From IMG/VR virus record IMGVR_UViG_3300021375_000017, positions 28,002 through 92,001 of that record: 64,000 nt of DNA, one strand, 5' to 3'. A program made the translations under genes and the position numbers. Shown piece by piece: positions 8,613 to 60,929 of the stretch (position 1 is its first letter; each line of letters starts with the position of its first letter). The notes below the pieces were generated by a model, which had not been told where the DNA came from, searched no databases, and saw nothing but the letters and a program-made list of their open reading frames with translations. Source of the stretch: a virus.

Positions 8613-9299
8613 ATGACCATGGGCAAATATTATACTTATGCCTATTTGCGTGAAGATGGAACTCCTTATTATATCGGTAAAGGATTAAAAAACAGGAAAT
8701 CTAAAAAGCATTTTAGAAGAAATGGAAAAGTATTTTCTCCTCCATCAGAAGATAAAATAATTATTCTCAAACAGAATTTAACTGAAAAAGAAGCATTTAA
8801 GCACGAAATTTATATGATTTCCGTTTTGGGTAGAAAAGATTTGGGGACTGGTATTTTGAGAAATTTGACTGAAGGTGGTGAAGGGAGTAGTGGATATAAA
8901 CACTCCGATGAATTTAAATCTAAAATTAGAAAAGTTCAGAGTGGTAGAGTTATTTCCAATACAACTAAAGAAAAAATGAGAAATGCAAATCTTGGAAAAG
9001 TTTTATCTGATGAACATAAAAAAAAGATTGGAGAATCGCAAGGGGGGAAAGTTGTAAATGAGGAGGTTAGAAAAAAAATAAGTAATACACTAAAAGGAAA
9101 AAAACATAGTCCAGAAAGAATTAATAATATAAGAAAGGGAATGGGATGTGAAACTTATAAATTCATTTCCCCAGAAGGTAAAATAATTGAAGTTGATAAT
9201 ATGACGCAATTCTGCTATGATAGAAATCTACAGCAAAGTTGTATGTCAAACATCTGGAACAATAAAAGAAACTTTCATAAAGGATGGAAAAAAGCATAA
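8613..9299 (+). CDS. GIY-YIG homing endonuclease (free-standing, NUMOD3 repeats)
   Basis: 228 residues. The N-terminal nuclease domain shows YYTYAYLREDGTPYYIGKG, with the conserved HEIYMISVLGRKDLG and LTEGGEGSSG blocks. The C-terminal half is repeated NUMOD3-like DNA-binding motifs (SDEHKKKIGES, SPERINNIRKG). An alternative start is the ATG at 8619. It sits between gp43 and uvsX as an insertion and ends in a TAATG overlap with uvsX. It is closely similar to the gene at 56873. In T4 relatives (seg genes) such enzymes spread by cutting homologous sites in co-infecting phage DNA; the target here is unknown. Confidence 0.9.
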   Translation: MTMGKYYTYAYLREDGTPYYIGKGLKNRKSKKHFRRNGKVFSPPSEDKIIILKQNLTEKEAFKHEIYMISVLGRKDLGTGILRNLTEGGEGSSGYKHSDEFKSKIRKVQSGRVISNTTKEKMRNANLGKVLSDEHKKKIGESQGGKVVNEEVRKKISNTLKGKKHSPERINNIRKGMGCETYKFISPEGKIIEVDNMTQFCYDRNLQQSCMSNIWNNKRNFHKGWKKA

Positions 9300-10216
9300 T
9301 GGACTTTTTATCAGATATTGTAAAAGAGATTGGAGATGACTTTACCAAACTTGCTGCCGACATCGATGACACTGAGACATATGTGGACACAGGTTCGTTC
9401 GTTCTTAACGCTCTTGTATCTGGGTCTATCCGTGGTGGTGTATCTGGGAATAAAATTACTGCAATTGCTGGCGAAAGTTCTACTGGAAAGACTTTCTTTT
9501 CACTCGCAGTGGTCAAGAACTTCTTGGATACTAATCCCGATGCATATTGCCTTTATTTTGATACTGAGGCAGCAGTTAATAAGTCACTACTAGTAAGTCG
9601 TGGCATTGATCTGAATCGACTAGTTGTTGTTAATGTCGTTACCATTGAGGAGTTTAGGAGTAAGGCTCTCAAGGCGGTAGACATGTATTCAAAAAAACCT
9701 GAAGATGAACGTAAACCTTGTATGTTTGTGTTAGATTCTTTAGGAATGCTTTCTACAGAGAAAGAAATCACTGATGCCCTCAATGAGAAACTTGTCCGTG
9801 ATATGACAAAATCTCAGTTGATTAAAGGGGCTTTCAGAATGTTGACTCTTAAATTGGGTCAAGCCAAAATACCAATGATTGTAACCAATCACACCTATGA
9901 TGTCATCGGAGCTTATGTTCCTACAAAGGAAATGGGTGGGGGTTGTTTAGTTGCGGGAACTAAGATACAAACAGAAAATGGTTCTATTCCTATTGAATCT
10001 ATTCAAGTTGGTGACAAAGTGAGAACTATGTTTGGTTATTCATCAGTTACTGACACTTTCCATTTCACCGATAAAGATGTTTATGAATTGGAATTGGAAG
10101 ATGGAGAAACTATTAGATGTTCTGGCGAACATAAGTTTTTAGTAGATACTGGAGATGGTTATGAATGGAAATCCGTTACTGAGTTATTACCTTCAGATAC
10201 TATCAAATCTATGTGA
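9299..10216 (+). CDS. uvsX: UvsX recombinase N-part fused to N-terminal half of a split intein
   Basis: The first 215 codons are UvsX/RecA (GESSTGKT Walker A at 58-65) and end at TKEMGGG. Cys-1 of an intein follows at 9944: CLVAGTKIQT (block A), then about 90 residues including CSGEHKFLV (block B), then a stop. The rest of intein and UvsX is encoded separately at 10890. The joined extein, GGG then SGLKYAAS, restores the usual UvsX sequence of 336 residues. The start is the ATG at 9299 overlapping the upstream stop. Active recombinase would need trans-splicing. Confidence 0.93.
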   Translation: MDFLSDIVKEIGDDFTKLAADIDDTETYVDTGSFVLNALVSGSIRGGVSGNKITAIAGESSTGKTFFSLAVVKNFLDTNPDAYCLYFDTEAAVNKSLLVSRGIDLNRLVVVNVVTIEEFRSKALKAVDMYSKKPEDERKPCMFVLDSLGMLSTEKEITDALNEKLVRDMTKSQLIKGAFRMLTLKLGQAKIPMIVTNHTYDVIGAYVPTKEMGGGCLVAGTKIQTENGSIPIESIQVGDKVRTMFGYSSVTDTFHFTDKDVYELELEDGETIRCSGEHKFLVDTGDGYEWKSVTELLPSDTIKSM

Positions 10217-10221
10217 AAGTT

Positions 10222-10258
10222 GGTTCTGGACTAAATAATAATAATTGAGTCCAGAACC
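10222..10258 (+). promoter_or_regulatory. perfect inverted repeat enclosing a late-promoter-like TAAATA
   Basis: GGTTCTGGACT (10222-10232) pairs exactly with AGTCCAGAACC (10248-10258). The 15-base loop carries TAAATA repeats starting at 10232. The HNH start codon begins at the next base. Transcripts from upstream would form the hairpin; one starting inside it would lack the 5' arm. Confidence 0.65.
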
Positions 10259-10930
10259 TTGTTTTTATCCAATAAGTATACTGATTGTTATTTCCGTATT
10301 ATTAATAAGGCAAATCTTAGGAAACTTCCTCAAATTACTGAATGTCATCATATTATACCTAAATCATTAGGTGGAGGAGAAGAACCAGAAAACAAAGTAT
10401 ATCTAACACCAAGAGAACATTTTGTCTGTCATCATCTTCTTCTGAAGATGTTAGAGGGAAAATCAAAACAGAAAATGTGTTATGCTTTTTATAGAATGAA
10501 CTCCAGTAATAATGGAGTTAGGTGTGAAAATCTCAATTCTTATGATAGAATAAGAGAACACTACTCTCATCTCACTTCTGGAGTAAATAACCCATTTTAT
10601 GGGAAGGGGCATTTTGGATATTCTAACCCAATGTCCAAACCTGAGGTTCGGGAGAAACATAAACAAATAGTTTCTTCACCTGAACATAGAAAGATGATGA
10701 GTGATAAAATGTCTGGTGAAAATAATCCATTTTACGGAAGAACTCATTCAGATGAAACCAAGAAACATCTTTCTGAGTTGGCGTCTCAGAGAACAGGTGA
10801 AAACTCTTCCCGTTATGGGAAGAAACACAGACGAGTTGTTTGTGAACACTGCCAAAAAGAAATTACTTACCCAATGTATAAGAGGTGGCATGGAACGAAT
10901 TGTAAAGTCTATCAAGAAAATAAAGACTGA
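10259..10930 (+). CDS. HNH homing endonuclease in the uvsX split-intein gap
   Basis: 223 residues if the TTG at 10259 is used, giving a family-like NKYTDCYFRIINKA start. The HNH core is ECHHIIPKSLGGGEEPENK with TPREHFVCHHLL. NUMOD3-like repeats follow (NPFYGRTHSDETKKHLSE), then a C-terminal zinc-binding CEHCQKE...HGTNC. It lies between the two intein half genes in the same direction and overlaps the C-half gene by 41 bases. It probably mobilises the whole interrupted-gene cassette by cutting intein-free uvsX. Confidence 0.88.
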   Translation: MFLSNKYTDCYFRIINKANLRKLPQITECHHIIPKSLGGGEEPENKVYLTPREHFVCHHLLLKMLEGKSKQKMCYAFYRMNSSNNGVRCENLNSYDRIREHYSHLTSGVNNPFYGKGHFGYSNPMSKPEVREKHKQIVSSPEHRKMMSDKMSGENNPFYGRTHSDETKKHLSELASQRTGENSSRYGKKHRRVVCEHCQKEITYPMYKRWHGTNCKVYQENKD

Positions 10931-11366
10931 GGATGTTTATGACATCACAGTTGAAGGAGAACATCATTATATTCTTGGTAATGGTGTCGTGTCTCACAAT
11001 TCTGGCCTTAAGTATGCAGCGTCTACAATCATCTATCTCTCAAAGAAAAAGGAAAAGGATGGAACAGAAGTGGTCGGCAATCTTATCAAGGCTAAGACTG
11101 CTAAGTCGCGTTTAAGTAAAGAGAATAAAGATGTTACTATACGTCTCTATTACGATGAACGTGGTCTTGATAGGTATTACGGTCTCTTAGAACTTGGAGA
11201 ACTTGGTGGACTATGGAAAAACGTTGCAGGACGTTATGAGATGGATGGTAAGAAAGTCTATGCTAAGGCCATCCTGAAAGAACCTGAGACTTATTTTACA
11301 CCTGAAGTGATGGAAAAACTAGATGAAATCGCAAAAGAACAATTCTCTTATGGTTCGTCATTATGA
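10890..11366 (+). CDS. uvsX: C-terminal intein half fused to UvsX C-part
   Basis: Starts at the ATG behind AAGAGG inside the HNH gene. Residues 1-37 are the intein C-half, containing DVYDITVEGEHHYILGNG (block F) and ending VVSHN. Splicing would join at Ser+1 (11001). The remaining 121 residues, from SGLKYAASTIIYLSKKK, are the UvsX C-terminal part. The intein N-half (90 aa) plus this 37 aa gives a normal minimal split intein. Without splicing, UvsX lacks its C-terminal third. Confidence 0.92.
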   Translation: MERIVKSIKKIKTEDVYDITVEGEHHYILGNGVVSHNSGLKYAASTIIYLSKKKEKDGTEVVGNLIKAKTAKSRLSKENKDVTIRLYYDERGLDRYYGLLELGELGGLWKNVAGRYEMDGKKVYAKAILKEPETYFTPEVMEKLDEIAKEQFSYGSSL

Positions 11367-11865
11367 TGTTGTTCCAGAGTCATACTGTAAAAAACTAATT
11401 GAGATATTTGAAAACTCCTCTAATCAGGAGTTTATCAATAATGATCACAAACCATGTTTCAGTCAGGTTAATCTGAGTAAAGAAAATCCTGAAATGGTCA
11501 GACAAATCATTCCCATTATTAAAGGTGTACATACTCTGTATAAGAAGGAAACCAAATCTTATTTTCTTCCAGAGTTAAATGCCCTTGAAGAACTTAGGAT
11601 TAAAAGATACCTTCCTAATGGTGAGGAAAGGTTTGATGAACATGTAGACGTGACTGACTATCCCTCATCAAGAAGGTCAGTTGCATTTTTATTTTATCTG
11701 AATACTAATGATGGTAATACAGTTTTTTCTAAACAGAAGTTGAACATTAAACCAAAGTGTGGTAGGGTAGTAGTATTCCCTCCTACATGGGAATATCCTC
11801 ATGCAAGACTCCCCCCAACAACTAGTAACAAATACATCATGAGTACATATATTCACTATGGATAA
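11350..11865 (+). CDS. 2OG-Fe(II) oxygenase
   Basis: 171 residues with a prolyl-4-hydroxylase-like double-stranded beta-helix. Iron ligands are H98-V-D100 (ERFDEHVDV) and H151 (YPHAR); K161 is a possible 2-oxoglutarate ligand. Such genes are common in cyanomyoviruses; the substrate is not known. The ATG chosen overlaps the uvsX end by 17 bases. It ends with an overlap into gp41. Confidence 0.85.
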   Translation: MVRHYDVVPESYCKKLIEIFENSSNQEFINNDHKPCFSQVNLSKENPEMVRQIIPIIKGVHTLYKKETKSYFLPELNALEELRIKRYLPNGEERFDEHVDVTDYPSSRRSVAFLFYLNTNDGNTVFSKQKLNIKPKCGRVVVFPPTWEYPHARLPPTTSNKYIMSTYIHYG

Positions 11866-12490
11866 GGTTGAATTTTTAGTTCTGAAAAATCTAATACACA
11901 ATGAAAAATACTTGAGAAAGGTTCTTCCATTCATTAAAGAAGAATATTTTGATGATACTAAATATAAGGTAATCTTCGACGAGATCTCTACCTTTACTGC
12001 TGAGTATAACGAACTCCCTACAAAAGAGATTCTCAATATTGAGATTGAAAAGAGAAGAGATATTAATGAGGACTCTTATAAACAGATTTCTCATGTAGTT
12101 AATTGTCTTGAGGACGATGTTGTAGAGTTTGATTGGTTGGTTAACACTACTGAGAAGTGGTGTCGTGACCGTGCCATTTATCTTGCCTTGATTGAATCCA
12201 TTCAGATTGCTGATGGAGGAGATGTCAAGAAGGCACCAGATGCCATTCCATCTATTCTGTCTGATGCTCTGGCAGTTAGTTTTGACAACCATGTAGGACA
12301 TGATTACCTTGAAGATTATGAATCACGATACGAGTCTTATCACAGGAAGGAGGAGAGAATTGAATTCGATCTCGACTATTTTAACAAAATCACGAAAGGT
12401 GGGCTCCCTAACAAAACTCTTAACATCGCACTTGCTGGTTGCGTTCATCCAGAAACTAAAGTTAAAATTAGATTTAAGAAGATTTCTTGA
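11858..12490 (+). CDS. gp41: gp41 replicative helicase N-part with very short intein N-fragment
   Basis: The first 194 residues are the gp41 N-terminal region up to TLNIALAG. An intein Cys follows at 12440 (CVHPETKVKIRF), and translation stops after only 16 intein residues. The rest of the intein and the helicase are encoded from 13177. The break falls inside the Walker A loop: ALAG joined to TGVGKS restores GTGVGKS, so neither half can bind ATP normally before splicing. The last 17 bases overlap the reverse-strand HNH gene. Confidence 0.92.
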   Translation: MDKVEFLVLKNLIHNEKYLRKVLPFIKEEYFDDTKYKVIFDEISTFTAEYNELPTKEILNIEIEKRRDINEDSYKQISHVVNCLEDDVVEFDWLVNTTEKWCRDRAIYLALIESIQIADGGDVKKAPDAIPSILSDALAVSFDNHVGHDYLEDYESRYESYHRKEERIEFDLDYFNKITKGGLPNKTLNIALAGCVHPETKVKIRFKKIS

Positions 12491-13142
12491 TTATGGAATT
12501 TGGTGCTGGTTCTCCAGTTCCAAATTTCCATCCTTCGTTTAATTTAGTATCAATATTTTCTGGTAGTATTCTTTTCCATCCCTTTGTTCCTGGTAAGTAC
12601 ATTACCTTTTTTCCTTTATGTGCTTTACCTCCAAGAGATGCTCTTTGTTGTCTTCCTTGATTAGACGCCCAGTAATTGAATTCTTTAGATGCTCTTTGCT
12701 TTCCTCCAAAAGATGCTCTTTCCTTTCTACCTTCTTCTGTACTCCAGTAATAAAAATTTTTAATGTTATCTTTTAAATATTCTTGTTTTTGAGTTTCCAT
12801 TCCTTTGACCATCCATTCTTTTCTTTCATCTATTGGAACAGAAAAGAAACCAATCTTATTATCTCTACAAAATTCCCCAATTATTTTTCTATATTGTGGA
12901 GATAAGTTTGCTCCTAACATTTTCATAGACCTTAAGTCATTTGGATTTTTGTATATTTTCCATAACAAATAATGTGCTATGATATGTTCTCTAACATTTA
13001 GGTATGTAAGGTTACAATCATCATCTGTTCCTCCCATATGTTTAGGAACAACATGATGTTCGTGTAGTCCTGAATATTTTTTATAATCTTCTTTTCTTGA
13101 CTTATTGCCTTTGCATAAGTTAGAATAGATACGATCAAACAT
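12474..13142 (-). CDS. HNH homing endonuclease, antisense, in the gp41 split-intein gap
   Basis: 222 residues on the reverse strand between the two gp41 pieces. HNH core: HEHHVVPKHMGGTDDD and NVREHIIAHYLLW. The middle holds degenerate repeats (GRKERASFGGK, GRQQRASLGGK) typical of DNA-binding tails of this family, and the end has KGWKRILPENID. It is a family relative of the HNH in uvsX. Opposite orientation means it cannot be read from the gp41 transcript; a reverse-strand TATAAATA lies 22 bases before its start. Confidence 0.88.
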   Translation of the reverse strand: MFDRIYSNLCKGNKSRKEDYKKYSGLHEHHVVPKHMGGTDDDCNLTYLNVREHIIAHYLLWKIYKNPNDLRSMKMLGANLSPQYRKIIGEFCRDNKIGFFSVPIDERKEWMVKGMETQKQEYLKDNIKNFYYWSTEEGRKERASFGGKQRASKEFNYWASNQGRQQRASLGGKAHKGKKVMYLPGTKGWKRILPENIDTKLNEGWKFGTGEPAPNSIIKKSS

Positions 13143-13164
13143 TCCCTGTCCCTGCTACTGCTAT

Positions 13165-13172
13165 TATTTATA
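13165..13172 (-). promoter_or_regulatory. late promoter for the antisense HNH gene
   Basis: The reverse strand reads TATAAATA exactly, 22 bases before the ATG (13142). No enclosing hairpin is visible here, unlike the sense-oriented endonuclease genes. Confidence 0.6.
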
Positions 13173-13176
13173 TAAA

Positions 13177-14352
13177 ATGTGGATTGAAAAAGAAACAACA
13201 ATTGCTGAAATCAAAACATTACTTGATAATGGATATGAAGTAGAAGTTGATTCTCCCGATGGATATGTTCCAGTTAATTTCTTTATTAACAAAGGAATGT
13301 ATGATGAATATGTTTTGAGAATCGATGGCATTGATGAACTTATAAGATGCAATGCCAATCATTTATTTCAGACATCTTTGGGGTGGATGAGTGCATCGCA
13401 TCTTTATAAAAAATATAAAATAATGCATTTTTTAACCGAGAGTGGTTATAAACTTGGTAGTGTATTTAAAACAGGAAATCAAATACCTATTGTTGATATT
13501 AATGTAAATCATCCAAATCACAGGTATTATACTAATGGAGTTTCTTCTCATAATACTGGCGTCGGGAAATCTCTATTCATGTGCCATGTGGCTAGCTCCG
13601 TCTTGCTCCAAGGGAGGAACGTTCTCTACATTACAATGGAGATGGCAGAAGAGCGCATTGCTGAAAGAATTGATGCGAACCTCTTGAATGTAAATATCCA
13701 GGAAATTGTTGACCTTCCAAAACAAATGTTTGAAACAAAGGTTACAAACCTGGCACAAAAGACTCAAGGTCACCTAATTATTAAGGAGTATCCTACTGCC
13801 TCTGCTCATGCTGGACACTTCAAATCACTTCTTAATGAACTTGCACTTAAGAAGTCATTTCGACCTGATATTATTTTCATTGATTACCTTAATATATGTT
13901 CTTCCGAAAGATATCGCGGAAATAGCACTGTCAATTCATATTCATATATTAAAGCAATTGCTGAAGAACTTAGAGGACTTGCTGTTGAAGCAAACGTCCC
14001 TATCATATCTGCCACTCAGACCACTCGTTCTGGTTATGGTAGCTCTGACGTTGAGCTTACTGACACTAGTGAGTCCTTTGGTCTCCCTGCTACTGCTGAT
14101 CTTATGTTTGCCCTTATTTCGACTGAAGAGTTGGAATCGTTGGGACAAATACTTGTAAAGCAATTGAAGAATAGGTATAATGATTACTCTGTCCATAGAC
14201 GTTTTGTTGTTGGTATTGATCGTGCCAAGATGAGATTATATGATTGTGAACAGTCTGCACAGGATGACCTTCTTGACAATGGTAAGGAAGAAGAGTACAA
14301 TAATGATGAACAAGAAAAACCTAAAAAATCATTTAGTGGATTTAAATTTTAA
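13177..14352 (+). CDS. gp41: long intein C-fragment fused to gp41 helicase C-part
   Basis: Residues 1-126 are the larger part of the split intein: CNANHLFQTS is block B and IPIVDINVNHPNHRYY with GVSSHN is the C-terminal block. The extein starts at Thr+1 (13555) with TGVGKS and runs 265 residues through RecA-like helicase motifs (ITMEMAEERIAERIDA; DIIFIDYLN; ISATQTTRSG). N- and C-exteins sum to 459 aa, near T4 gp41 (475 aa). No clear Shine-Dalgarno precedes this ATG. Confidence 0.92.
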   Translation: MWIEKETTIAEIKTLLDNGYEVEVDSPDGYVPVNFFINKGMYDEYVLRIDGIDELIRCNANHLFQTSLGWMSASHLYKKYKIMHFLTESGYKLGSVFKTGNQIPIVDINVNHPNHRYYTNGVSSHNTGVGKSLFMCHVASSVLLQGRNVLYITMEMAEERIAERIDANLLNVNIQEIVDLPKQMFETKVTNLAQKTQGHLIIKEYPTASAHAGHFKSLLNELALKKSFRPDIIFIDYLNICSSERYRGNSTVNSYSYIKAIAEELRGLAVEANVPIISATQTTRSGYGSSDVELTDTSESFGLPATADLMFALISTEELESLGQILVKQLKNRYNDYSVHRRFVVGIDRAKMRLYDCEQSAQDDLLDNGKEEEYNNDEQEKPKKSFSGFKF

Positions 14353-30063: not shown

Positions 30064-30684
30064 ATGAATAATTATATTCTTTATTATTACTTAAGGGAGG
30101 ACTTCGGTTCCCCCTTTTATGTTGGTTATGGAAAACCGAGAAGAATTAATTCCAGACACTCTAGAAGAAATGGTGCTGAAATTTTACCACATAGAGAGAG
30201 GAGATGGATTGTAAAATCTGGTTTATCTAAAGAAGAAGCAATAGAACTTGAGATAAAACATATAGCACTCTGGAAAAGAGAATGTGATGGTGGTGTATTG
30301 TTAAATCAAAATCTTGGTGGAGAAGGAAAACCTGGAGGACAAAAAACAAAAGGTTTTAGTGGTAGAAAGCACACTGAAGAAGCAAAGAAAAAAATAAGTG
30401 AAAAAGTTGCAGGAAAAAATAATCCAAGTTATGGTGTTCCTTGTAGTAAAGAACGAAAAAGAAAAATAAGTGAAAGAGCAAAAGAAAGATTTGCCGAAGG
30501 ATTTAAATCTCCTTCATCAGTAACTTATCTTTTAACAAGTCATTCTAAAGAAAAATTTAAGGTATTTGGAGAACTTAAAAAGTTTTGTAAGTCTCAAAAT
30601 ATTTCATACGCAACGATGCGCGCAGCAATTCTTTATGATAGAAAAGGTCCTAGAAGAAATGGATGGAGTATTGAGAAAATTTAG
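30064..30684 (+). CDS. GIY-YIG homing endonuclease downstream of nrdB
   Basis: 206 residues. The nuclease motif appears as YYYLREDFGSPFYVGYGKP; the family block EEAIELEIKHIALWKRE and NLGGEGKPGG follow. NUMOD3-like repeats (HTEEAKKKISEKVAG, SKERKRKISERAK) lead to a C-terminal DNA-binding FKVFGELKKFCKSQNI. More diverged from the 8613 and 56873 genes than those are from each other. Inserted between nrdB and a small conserved gene. Confidence 0.88.
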   Translation: MNNYILYYYLREDFGSPFYVGYGKPRRINSRHSRRNGAEILPHRERRWIVKSGLSKEEAIELEIKHIALWKRECDGGVLLNQNLGGEGKPGGQKTKGFSGRKHTEEAKKKISEKVAGKNNPSYGVPCSKERKRKISERAKERFAEGFKSPSSVTYLLTSHSKEKFKVFGELKKFCKSQNISYATMRAAILYDRKGPRRNGWSIEKI

Positions 30685-54049: not shown

Positions 54050-54213
54050 AGTCGAGAGGTTACGGAATCAACACATTCCTTTACTGTTCGTAACACTCCT
54101 CAAACCGAGACCTATAGGGTGTATAAATCACGTCTCTCATATCCCCGGCTGAGGGTGCTGGGGAAATAGTAACTCCACCATTCCCTGATGGTCTTACTTT
54201 TTTGTTCAAAACA

Positions 54214-55290
54214 ATGGCTACAACTCTTTCAAGACAACAAACATCCCCATGGCAGAATTTCTGTGAGTGGGTAACTTCAACAAACAATCGTCTTTATGTC
54301 GGCTGGTTCGGTGTGCTCATGCTCCCGACACTGCTTGCAGCAACAATCTGCTTCATCGTTGCCTTCATCGCTGCTCCGCCTGTTGACATAGACGGCATCC
54401 GTGAACCCGTTGCTGGTTCACTCATGTATGGTAACAACATCATCTCTGGTGCAGTTGTTCCTAGTTCAAACGCAATTGGTCTTCACTTCTACCCCATTTG
54501 GGAAGCAGCATCTTTGGATGAATGGCTTTACAATGGTGGTCCTTTCCAACTGGTAGTCTTCCACTTCCTTATCGGCATCTATGCATATATGGGACGTGAG
54601 TGGGAACTTTCCTACCGCTTGGGCATGAGGCCCTGGATCTGTGTAGCATACTCTGCTCCAGTAGCAGCAGCATCTGCTGTATTCCTCGTCTACCCCTTCG
54701 GTCAAGGTTCATTCTCCGACGCTATGCCACTTGGCATCTCTGGTACGTTCAACTACATGTTGGTCTTCCAATCAGAGCACAACATCCTGATGCATCCCTT
54801 CCATATGGCGGGTGTAGCAGGTGTCTTCGGTGGTTCACTGTTCTCCGCCATGCACGGCTCACTGGTGACCTCTTCCTTGGTTCGTGAAACAACCGAGACC
54901 GAGTCACAGAACTATGGTTACAAGTTTGGTCAAGAAGAAGAGACCTATAACATCGTCGCAGCCCATGGTTACTTCGGTCGTTTGATCTTCCAATACGCAT
55001 CATTCAACAACTCCCGTTCCTTGCACTTCTTCCTTGCTGCATGGCCTGTTGTTGGCATCTGGTTCACCGCTCTTGGTGTTTCTACGATGGCTTTTAATCT
55101 CAACGGTCTGAATTTTAATCAGAGCATTCTGGATAGTCAGAACCGTGTTGTTAATACCTGGGCCGACGTGTTGAACCGTGCCGGTCTTGGTTTAGAAGTG
55201 ATGCACGAAAGAAATGCTCATAATTTCCCACTTGACCTCGCCGCAGCAGAAAGTACTCCTGTAGCACTTACTGCTCCTACTGTTGGTTGA
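54214..55290 (+). CDS. psbA: photosystem II D1 protein
   Basis: 358 residues from the ATG at 54214 ([15 protein letters not shown]); the upstream TTG is rejected. Five transmembrane helices; [19 protein letters not shown] holds the P680 ligand His; the C-terminal [14 protein letters not shown] retains the Mn-cluster His/Glu/Asp set. A 15-residue extension, [15 protein letters not shown], follows the predicted CtpA cleavage site after LDLA. It replaces photodamaged host D1 during infection. No intron is present. Confidence 0.98.
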
Positions 55291-56092: not shown

Positions 56093-56180
56093 AAACACTC
56101 ATTGACTTCTATTGTAAAGAAATATAAAGATACACTTAAGTCACTAAAGGGTCTTATGGACACCTGAATAACCGTCCACC

Positions 56181-56205
56181 ACCTCCTTGACGGGGGTGGT
56201 TTTTT
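56181..56205 (+). terminator. terminator after talC
   Basis: ACCACCTCC...GGGGGTGGT hairpin with TTGAC in the loop, then six T. Confidence 0.82.
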
Positions 56206-56215
56206 ATTGTATAAT
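56187..56215 (+). promoter_or_regulatory. early promoter overlapping the talC terminator
   Basis: TTGACG (56187-56192), 17-base spacer made of the terminator 3' arm and T-tract, TATAAT (56210-56215). Drives the gene at 56237. Confidence 0.75.
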
Positions 56216-56872: not shown

Positions 56873-57619
56873 ATGTATTATACTTACGCATACCTGCGGG
56901 AAGATAAAACTCCTTATTACATTGGAAAAGGCAAAGGCGATAGAATTTATAAAAAAAGCAATAGGGAAATTAAACCACCAAAAGATAGGACAAGAGTAAT
57001 TTTTCTAAAACAAAACCTCACTGAAGAAGAAGCATTTAAACATGAAAAATATATGATTGCCGTGTTTGGTAGGAAAGATTTAGGAAATGGTATTCTTCGC
57101 AACAGGACTGATGGTGGAGAAGGAAATAGTGGGTTGATTCATAGTCAAGAATCAAAAAGAAAAATAAGTGAAGCAGTAAAGGGAAAAAATCATCCTCTAT
57201 ATGGAATATCTCCTTCAAAAGAAACGAGGAAAAAAATGAGTAATTCTTTGAAGGGAAGAATAATCTTTCCAGAATGGAGAGAAAAAATGAGTAAATCTCA
57301 TATTGGAAGACCAGGAACTTATGGATTTGATGGAAAGTTTCATAGTCAAGAAACTAAACAAAAATTGAGACAAATAAATCTTGGTAGAAAACATTCTGAA
57401 GAAACTAGAAGAAAAATAAGTGAATCGCATAAATGCTCAAATCATTATCAATATGGAAAACCTCTTTCAGAAGAAACAAAGAAGAAATTAAAAGAAATAA
57501 ATATTGGAAAAAATAATCCAAATTATGGAAAACACTGGTGGAACAATGGACATATTTCCAAACTTAGTATAGAATGTCCTGGAAATGGTTGGATTCGTGG
57601 TAGAATTGCAAATAGATAG
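56873..57619 (+). CDS. GIY-YIG homing endonuclease, NUMOD3 repeats
   Basis: 248 residues. Nuclease: MYYTYAYLREDKTPYYIGKG, KHEKYMIAVFGRKDLGNGIL, TDGGEGNSG. Six or so NUMOD3-like repeats follow (SKETRKKMSNSLKG, SEETRRKISESHK). C-terminus has KHWWNNGHISKLS. Closest relative in the window is 8613. It sits directly upstream of the gene at 57634, whose ribosome site (AGGAGG) overlaps its stop. Confidence 0.9.
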   Translation: MYYTYAYLREDKTPYYIGKGKGDRIYKKSNREIKPPKDRTRVIFLKQNLTEEEAFKHEKYMIAVFGRKDLGNGILRNRTDGGEGNSGLIHSQESKRKISEAVKGKNHPLYGISPSKETRKKMSNSLKGRIIFPEWREKMSKSHIGRPGTYGFDGKFHSQETKQKLRQINLGRKHSEETRRKISESHKCSNHYQYGKPLSEETKKKLKEINIGKNNPNYGKHWWNNGHISKLSIECPGNGWIRGRIANR

Positions 57620-59827: not shown

Positions 59828-60144
59828 CACACAACCTCCCAGATAAAGATGATGCTCCATGGTTGAATACAACTCTGGATGGATTCAATGAAGAACTTGC
59901 ATTAAAATCTCTTGGAATTGATCGTGAAACTTTTGGACAGAAACCTTGGAATGAAGGTGATTTAGATTATGAAGCACCAAATGGTGATCACATCAAGAAC
60001 TATCCTGATGTCACCCGTGTAGAGGTGATTGGTAGTGATGGACGTGAGTATGTTCGTTATGAATGTTCTAACGTTCAGGTGTCACTACAGGATGACGGAC
60101 AAACAATCAAAGTATTTCTATTTTCTACCTATGACAATCCCTAA
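59824..60144 (+). CDS. conserved hypothetical protein, 106 aa
   Basis: Start at MTHNLPDKDDAPWLNTTLDG in an ATGA overlap. A mixed alpha/beta protein with TRVEVIGSDGREYVRYECSN and VSLQDDGQTIKVFLF. Function unknown. Confidence 0.5.
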   Translation: MTHNLPDKDDAPWLNTTLDGFNEELALKSLGIDRETFGQKPWNEGDLDYEAPNGDHIKNYPDVTRVEVIGSDGREYVRYECSNVQVSLQDDGQTIKVFLFSTYDNP

Positions 60145-60514
60145 TTTCAAATCCCGACATGATTGGGAAGCATTTACATCAATGTTTGATGCACGTTGGC
60201 ATTGTAAGAAAGCATTGCTAGATCGTGTCAAAGATGATCTCTATCCCAAATATAGATGGGAAGAACTCAATGCAGGAACACTTGAAGTGATCAATGACAT
60301 CACACAATCTCTGTTGTATGATGTAGAGCACACATTCAAAGAAGAGCATCCAGAGTATAAGACTGAGGATGATGAATGTTTTATCCCTCGTTCTTCATTC
60401 AAGGAGAATGTAACAGAAGCTCTTCTGGAAGCAAACCAGAAGTTCTGGAACTCTGCTAACGAATGCCCTCCATGTGACACTCTGCATGTAAAGAATGTGA
60501 TAAAGCAAGAGTGA
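60131..60514 (+). CDS. hypothetical protein, 127 aa, C-terminus altered by HNH insertion
   Basis: Start at MTIPNFKSRHDWEAFTSMF. Helical, with NDITQSLLYDVEHTFKEEH. The last ~15 codons (from about 60470) read across bases that, in another frame, encode ACKECDKARVKARH, part of the HNH protein, so the natural end was probably replaced when the HNH sequence arrived. Its stop overlaps the HNH GTG start (GTGA). Confidence 0.5.
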   Translation: MTIPNFKSRHDWEAFTSMFDARWHCKKALLDRVKDDLYPKYRWEELNAGTLEVINDITQSLLYDVEHTFKEEHPEYKTEDDECFIPRSSFKENVTEALLEANQKFWNSANECPPCDTLHVKNVIKQE

Positions 60515-60840
60515 AGGCAAGACATCAAGCAAACCCAGAACGCACAAGAAATAATGATCTGAAAAGAAACTATGGTATAACTCTTGAAGAACATACAAAA
60601 ATGTATGAAGAACAAAATGGACGATGTGCTATTTGTGGTAATGAAGGTAATGGTAAGTGGAAAAAGTTATGTGTAGACCATTGTCACACCACTGGTAAGA
60701 TTAGAAAACTACTCTGCAACAACTGTAACACCGCACTGGGGCTGGTAGGAGACAATGTAGATACCCTTCAGAAGATGATTGAGTATCTTGCTGCTGCTGA
60801 GTCTACACCTGTAGCACTCGTAGCACCATCTGTAGGATGA
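60511..60840 (+). CDS. HNH endonuclease (endonuclease VII-like) ending in a D1 C-terminal peptide
   Basis: 109 residues from a GTG start. NYGITLEEHTKMYEEQNGRC, CAICGNEGNGKWKKLCVDHC, HTTGKIRKLLCNNCNTALGL is the endonuclease VII-like HNH core with zinc Cys. The frame is open back to 60478, encoding an extra CKEC half of a zinc finger, so the N-terminus is truncated. The last 17 residues, [17 protein letters not shown], match the D1 C-terminus from psbA at 15 of 17 positions. Either a psbA-homing relic or a functional tail. Confidence 0.85.
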   Translation: MKARHQANPERTRNNDLKRNYGITLEEHTKMYEEQNGRCAICGNEGNGKWKKLCVDHCHTTGKIRKLLCNNCNTALGLVGDNVDTLQKMIEYLAAAESTPVALVAPSVG

Positions 60841-60858: not shown

Positions 60859-60887
60859 TCACCACTCCCTTGACGGGGGTGCTTTTT
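60859..60887 (+). terminator. terminator after the HNH gene
   Basis: CACTCCC / GGGGGTG (one T-G pair) around TTGAC, then six T. Confidence 0.72.
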
Positions 60888-60898
60888 TATTGTATAAT
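60870..60898 (+). promoter_or_regulatory. early promoter overlapping the terminator
   Basis: TTGACG (60870-60875), 17-base spacer including the T-tract, TATAAT (60893-60898). Nearly identical in design to the one at 56187. Drives the gene at 60930 and the purine genes. Confidence 0.75.
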
Positions 60899-60929
60899 GA
60901 CCACAGATAAAACTAACCAAGAATGTCAT

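Follow-up and report, generated by a model that had tools for sequence, protein, structure and literature searches.

An endonuclease gene fragment that ends in a captured psbA tail in a cyanophage genome, and its probable origin in illegitimate repair

Why should a reading frame for an endonuclease end in the C terminus of the photosystem II protein D1? In the window (the whole stretch of 64,000 nucleotides (nt) of viral DNA analysed here), the open reading frame (ORF) at 60511-60840 on the + strand closes with 17 residues, all of which (17/17) match the D1 C terminus of several cyanophages. An earlier note on this DNA had offered two answers: that the endonuclease once lay at the 3′ end of a psbA gene, or that the peptide is kept for a function. 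Here we describe the two parents of the frame and its joints, survey the family to which the nuclease belongs and weigh the possible origins of the fusion.

Composition of the fused reading frame

The fusion is present in four further IMG/VR contigs, of which three (L009, L010 and L011) are 100% identical to the window over 900 bp and the fourth (L012) is 100% identical over all 525 bp that it holds. This identity rules out an assembly error and settles the concern, raised in the earlier note, that the match might disappear once the sequence was corrected. Judged by the same identity, all five contigs that carry the fusion are from a single virus population. A degenerate DNA scan of IMG/VR detected no nuclease–psbA tail fusions beyond this virus. 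The features of the locus are listed in Table 1.

Table 1. Positions of the features discussed (window coordinates unless a contig is named)
Feature	Position	Strand	Remarks
Own psbA of the phage, intronless	54202..55290	+	Own D1 tail at 55237-55290
Upstream cyanophage gene, function unassigned	60131..60514	+	Native C terminus overwritten by nuclease DNA
5′ joint, microhomology GACACTCTGCATGT	60476..60489	+	Common to the end of the upstream gene and the nuclease gene
F-CphI-family (Endonuclease_7 / DHHRN) homing-endonuclease gene fragment	60476..60788	+	
Chimeric reading frame	60511..60840	+	Conserved internal Val codon listed as the GTG "start"; overlaps stop of upstream gene (GTGA)
Endonuclease_7 catalytic domain	60559..60792	+	PF02945 residues 17-94, E 5.6e-26
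Captured 3′ end (17 codons and the stop) of the psbA of another cyanophage	60787..60840	+	Nucleotide and amino acid identity
Terminator/promoter-like module	60860..60917	+	86% to L110 3525-3582; begins ~20 nt past captured tail
Displaced second psbA tail	L016 4124-4180		With psbA-type terminator, behind inserted nuclease block
Displaced second psbA tail	L019 7191-7256		With psbA-type terminator, behind inserted nuclease block

The label 'HNH' in the earlier note was loose: the domain is Endonuclease_7 (PF02945), and the gene belongs to the F-CphI/DHHRN family. F-CphI of Synechococcus phage S-PM2, a DHHRN/Endonuclease VII enzyme that takes part in 'collaborative homing' with a psbA group I intron, shares 64% amino acid identity with ORF residues 1-104. 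In the alignment, C39, C42, D56, H57, H59, R65, C69, C72 and N73 of the ORF fall on C84, C87, D101, H102, H104, R110, C114, C117 and N118 of F-CphI, respectively; the Endonuclease VII catalytic motif (CxxC, D-H-x-H, R, CxxC, N) is complete and the zinc cysteines are intact. The other nearest annotated relatives are genes behind psbA in S-SRM01, S-H68, RB11-B, S-B05 and S-SKS1. The predicted structure has a compact folded catalytic core (pLDDT mostly 70-90) and a tail of low confidence. At the nucleotide level, the fragment is 98.9% identical to L013 (60476-60755), 99.6% to L029 (60476-60731) and 95.5% to L016 (60476-60788).

The fragment is without the first ~35 codons of DNA (~45 codons of reading frame) and the native last 1-5 codons of the gene, and the start and the N-terminal region (residues 1-45, with CMTC..CKEC) are absent from the fused ORF. 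Because the listed GTG is an internal Val codon, an in-frame TGA (60475-60477) precedes it and ~45 codons are missing, the apparent '109-aa protein' is a 5′-truncated reading frame. Its product probably does not home, owing to the loss of the N-terminal CxxC..CxxC region.

The last 18 codons (including TGA) are homologous at the nucleotide level to the 3′ end of psbA, with frame and stop matching. Our recount against the window's own psbA tail gave exactly the figures first reported (15/17 residues and 4/18 codons identical, with the same stop codon) and 37/54 nt. The best psbA match is that of L103/L105, with 52/54 nt (96%) and 16/18 codons identical, and both differences are at synonymous sites. 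Judged by its nucleotides, the tail was copied recently from the psbA end of another phage. The earlier note was right to exclude a recent origin from the psbA of this phage; the low codon identity, though, is no sign of age or of selection on the peptide, in view of the match to the psbA of another cyanophage. All 17 residues also occur in D1 of Syn1, S-RIM44, ACG-2014i and one S-CAM8 isolate, an agreement well outside what chance would give. An exact 29-mer from the tail was found in 19 IMG/VR stretches, 4 of which are the same fused gene and 15 of which are psbA 3′ ends.

Could the D1-like tail have been kept because it serves the endonuclease, through CtpA processing, stability or localisation to the photosynthetic membrane? 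The extension is in frame and full length, it includes the residues that flank the D1 cleavage site, and no frameshift interrupts the fused reading frame in any of the five contigs. However, DNA that was copied so recently accounts for the identity of the residues with no selection on the nuclease, an in-frame joining has a chance of ~1 in 3, and the nuclease gene has neither a proper start nor its N-terminal region. Furthermore, none of the 64 full-length relatives described below ends in a D1-like C terminus, and the fusion is unique to one virus. We therefore regard a kept tail as very improbable. We give as little credence to the proposal that the fused frame is expressed with a functional D1 extension, whether trimmed by host CtpA or acting as a tether to thylakoid-associated protein processing; neither a retained role for the peptide nor CtpA processing has support. 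The start of the tail near the CtpA site, on which the earlier note remarked, is explained by the cutting of psbA by this enzyme family at the intron site (after codon 337), ~7 codons upstream.

Linkage of the nuclease family to psbA

The concept of collaborative homing was founded on F-CphI and proposed from few isolates. A near-complete search of IMG/VR for the F-CphI family yielded 72 loci: 64 full-length members (including L152, which leaves its contig before the stop), 4 from this virus and 4 that are distant. The 64 full-length genes represent 42 distinct genes at 97% identity. The earlier note had pointed to cyanophage psbA 3′ ends as the place to look for such nucleases, and every full-length gene (64/64) is found there, 45-100 nt behind the psbA tail (median of 71). 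Exon 1 is present on the contig at 54 of these loci, and at 52 of them psbA is interrupted at codon 337 by a gap of 202-242 nt. In S-PM2, in S-SRM01 and in each representative that was examined with Rfam, a group I intron is scored at the equivalent position. The intron falls after codon 337 (window psbA numbering, listed TTG start), and the exon 2 behind it encodes just the D1 tail. F-CphI itself is characterised as a free-standing homing endonuclease that cuts intronless psbA, and the group I intron shields its own genome (PMC6083498).

The window copy shares with F-CphI of S-PM2 the conserved catalytic and zinc residues and membership of a psbA-linked family; it differs in that it is truncated at its 5′ end, has had its native C terminus swapped for a psbA tail and is situated 5.2 kb from the window's own psbA rather than directly behind it, displaced from the usual site of the family. 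The setting also differs, in that the psbA of the window phage has no protective intron: the gene is continuous at codon 337, with the empty intron site between 55212 and 55213, and no group I intron (Intron_gpI, Rfam) was found in the 64-kb window. Of the two answers that were first proposed, the link to psbA stands, as the family homes into psbA and its members lie at the psbA 3′ end, whereas a function for the peptide finds no support in the 0/64 relatives with the tail.

The nuclease might instead once have been inside a psbA intron before exon 2, and have been read into exon 2 after loss of the 3′ part of the intron. The psbA of S-SRM01 does have an intron-encoded endonuclease, in an upstream intron, but no F-CphI-family gene lies inside the codon-337 intron (0/64), all being behind exon 2, which makes this origin most unlikely.

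Variation was also seen in psbA itself. In S-SRM01 (L002 391-2796), the gene is in four pieces with three insertion sites; two of the insertions are scored as group I introns, and an endonuclease ORF lies in the first. L184 and L199 have F-CphI-family genes behind intronless psbA, and the target region of L184 is altered (NSHQFPLDL), possibly as a second way of escaping self-cutting.

Other candidate homing elements occur in the window. The uvsX (RecA-like) gene (9284-11366) is fractured: its N-part closes with the N-terminal region of an intein, its C-part carries an intein C terminus (..VVSHN/SGLKY), and a free-standing NUMOD3/HNH-type ORF (10259-10930) lies between them. The arrangement is that of a split intein whose halves are separated by an endonuclease gene. 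A gp41-like helicase gene (11858-14352) is fractured at GCVHPETKV.., where the intein N-fragment is only ~16 residues in length; there follow an opposite-strand ORF (12474-13142) and then a long intein C-part (..VSSHN/TGVGKS) with the remainder of the helicase, in what looks like an atypically split intein. By eye, three reading frames resemble GIY-YIG homing endonucleases: 8613-9299 (after polB), 30064-30684 (after nrdB) and 56873-57619 (in the psbA–purS region).

Joints and displaced psbA tails

The microhomology at the 5′ joint is 14 nt in length, and relatives of the upstream gene read GATACACTGGCATGT at this position. The native C terminus of these relatives is ..CPPCDTLxCxDHLTDE (also ..CADHLTDE); in the window, it is overwritten by out-of-frame nuclease DNA. 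At the 3′ joint, between nuclease and psbA tail, microhomology is only 2-4 nt. The final ~30 nt of the nuclease part (60756-60786) have no good match in any known family member, which points to a direct nuclease parent that is unsampled. A search elsewhere for the native 3′ terminus of this particular nuclease allele found none, and the source of the ~19 nt that follow the captured tail was likewise not found. The module beyond these nucleotides is 92% identical to window 56177-56215 via L010 1667-1705, and copies of this module, which combines a terminator with a promoter-like element, are found in intergenic spacers of both this phage and S-CAM8-like phages. The small ORF downstream of the fusion has only distant matches, in small (41-47 kb) Synechococcus phages, and no clean empty site that retains the two flanking genes was found in a search.

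In two other lineages, a second psbA tail has been displaced (Table 1). The order in L016 is psbA exon 1, intron, exon 2, nuclease, another ORF and then the second psbA tail with the psbA terminator. In the displaced tails of L016 and L019, foreign DNA gives way to psbA 9-24 nt beyond the intron site; the start of the window tail is near the same place (~24 nt past it). Beyond the displaced tail, L016 matches S-SKS1 DNA (97% over 98 bp), as is consistent with a displaced recipient end.

The positions of these joints bear on whether the fusion arose by generic non-homologous mosaicism, in which a nuclease fragment and a psbA end were joined by chance and enzyme cutting was uninvolved. The psbA–purS region is a hypervariable exchange zone in which S-CAM8 has different genes, and the 5′ joint at the upstream gene has the form of ordinary microhomology joining. 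Against this, the captured piece consists of the few tens of bases that follow the family's own psbA target site, and two other loci have nearly the same joint position. We consider a chance origin unlikely.

Origin of the fusion

The fusion is probably a chimeric relic of the illegitimate, one-sided repair of the nuclease's own cut in psbA, which was later moved. The two parental sequences, the joints, the truncation and the linkage of the family to psbA are observed; the break, the way in which it was repaired and the sequence of events are inferred, as follows. In the ancestral setting, an F-CphI-family gene would have lain just behind a psbA in which the intron-split last exon encodes the D1 tail. 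The enzyme would have cut an intronless psbA close to the intron site; the right-hand end of the cut gene (of the L103/L105 type) may then have been attached, by illegitimate joining rather than by homology repair, to the nuclease gene at its 3′ end. If the copied donor block stopped at the nuclease gene, an in-frame nuclease–psbA tail fusion would result. At that point or subsequently, this fusion would have lost its 5′ third and joined the end of an unrelated gene at the 14-nt microhomology, ~5 kb downstream of the intronless psbA of this phage. The psbA tail would be passive cargo. A search of IMG/VR for the intermediate, an intact nuclease gene fused to the tail at a psbA locus, found none, and for this reason we infer two steps.

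Several observations support repair of the nuclease's own cut. The captured piece lies close behind the target site of the family, and the L016 and L019 joints nearly coincide with its start; the nuclease part is 99% identical to psbA-linked genes over 60476-60755 and the tail 96% identical to a foreign psbA; the family is linked to psbA at all full-length loci, nearly all of those with exon 1 on the contig having the codon-337 gap; F-CphI cuts intronless psbA and is blocked by the intron (PMC6083498); and only one virus carries the fusion. There is also a precedent in phage T4, in which one-sided intron homing, when one exon is without homology, proceeds by illegitimate double-strand-break repair with microhomology joints, according to the summary in PMC2988022. 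The likeness to the T4 case (Parker et al. 1999, as summarised there) extends to short-homology joints adjacent to the cut and a displaced flanking exon; that case, as the summary presents it, concerned the td intron in the laboratory, whereas ours is read from natural psbA sequences. Homing endonuclease genes (HEGs) also mark exchange boundaries in phages (PMC10448857) and, as there, the nuclease gene edges a variable exchange region; unlike there, the window nuclease gene is itself broken and chimeric. One-sided illegitimate repair is the most economical mechanism.

These results extend the linkage between the nuclease and psbA from a few isolates to all of the full-length environmental loci. 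The natural scars (one fusion and two displaced psbA tails) sit where the botched repair of a cut should leave them, and a striking protein oddity would be explained without a new function. The idea that homing into a photosynthesis gene remodels the genomes of phages by way of illegitimate repair can now be tested.
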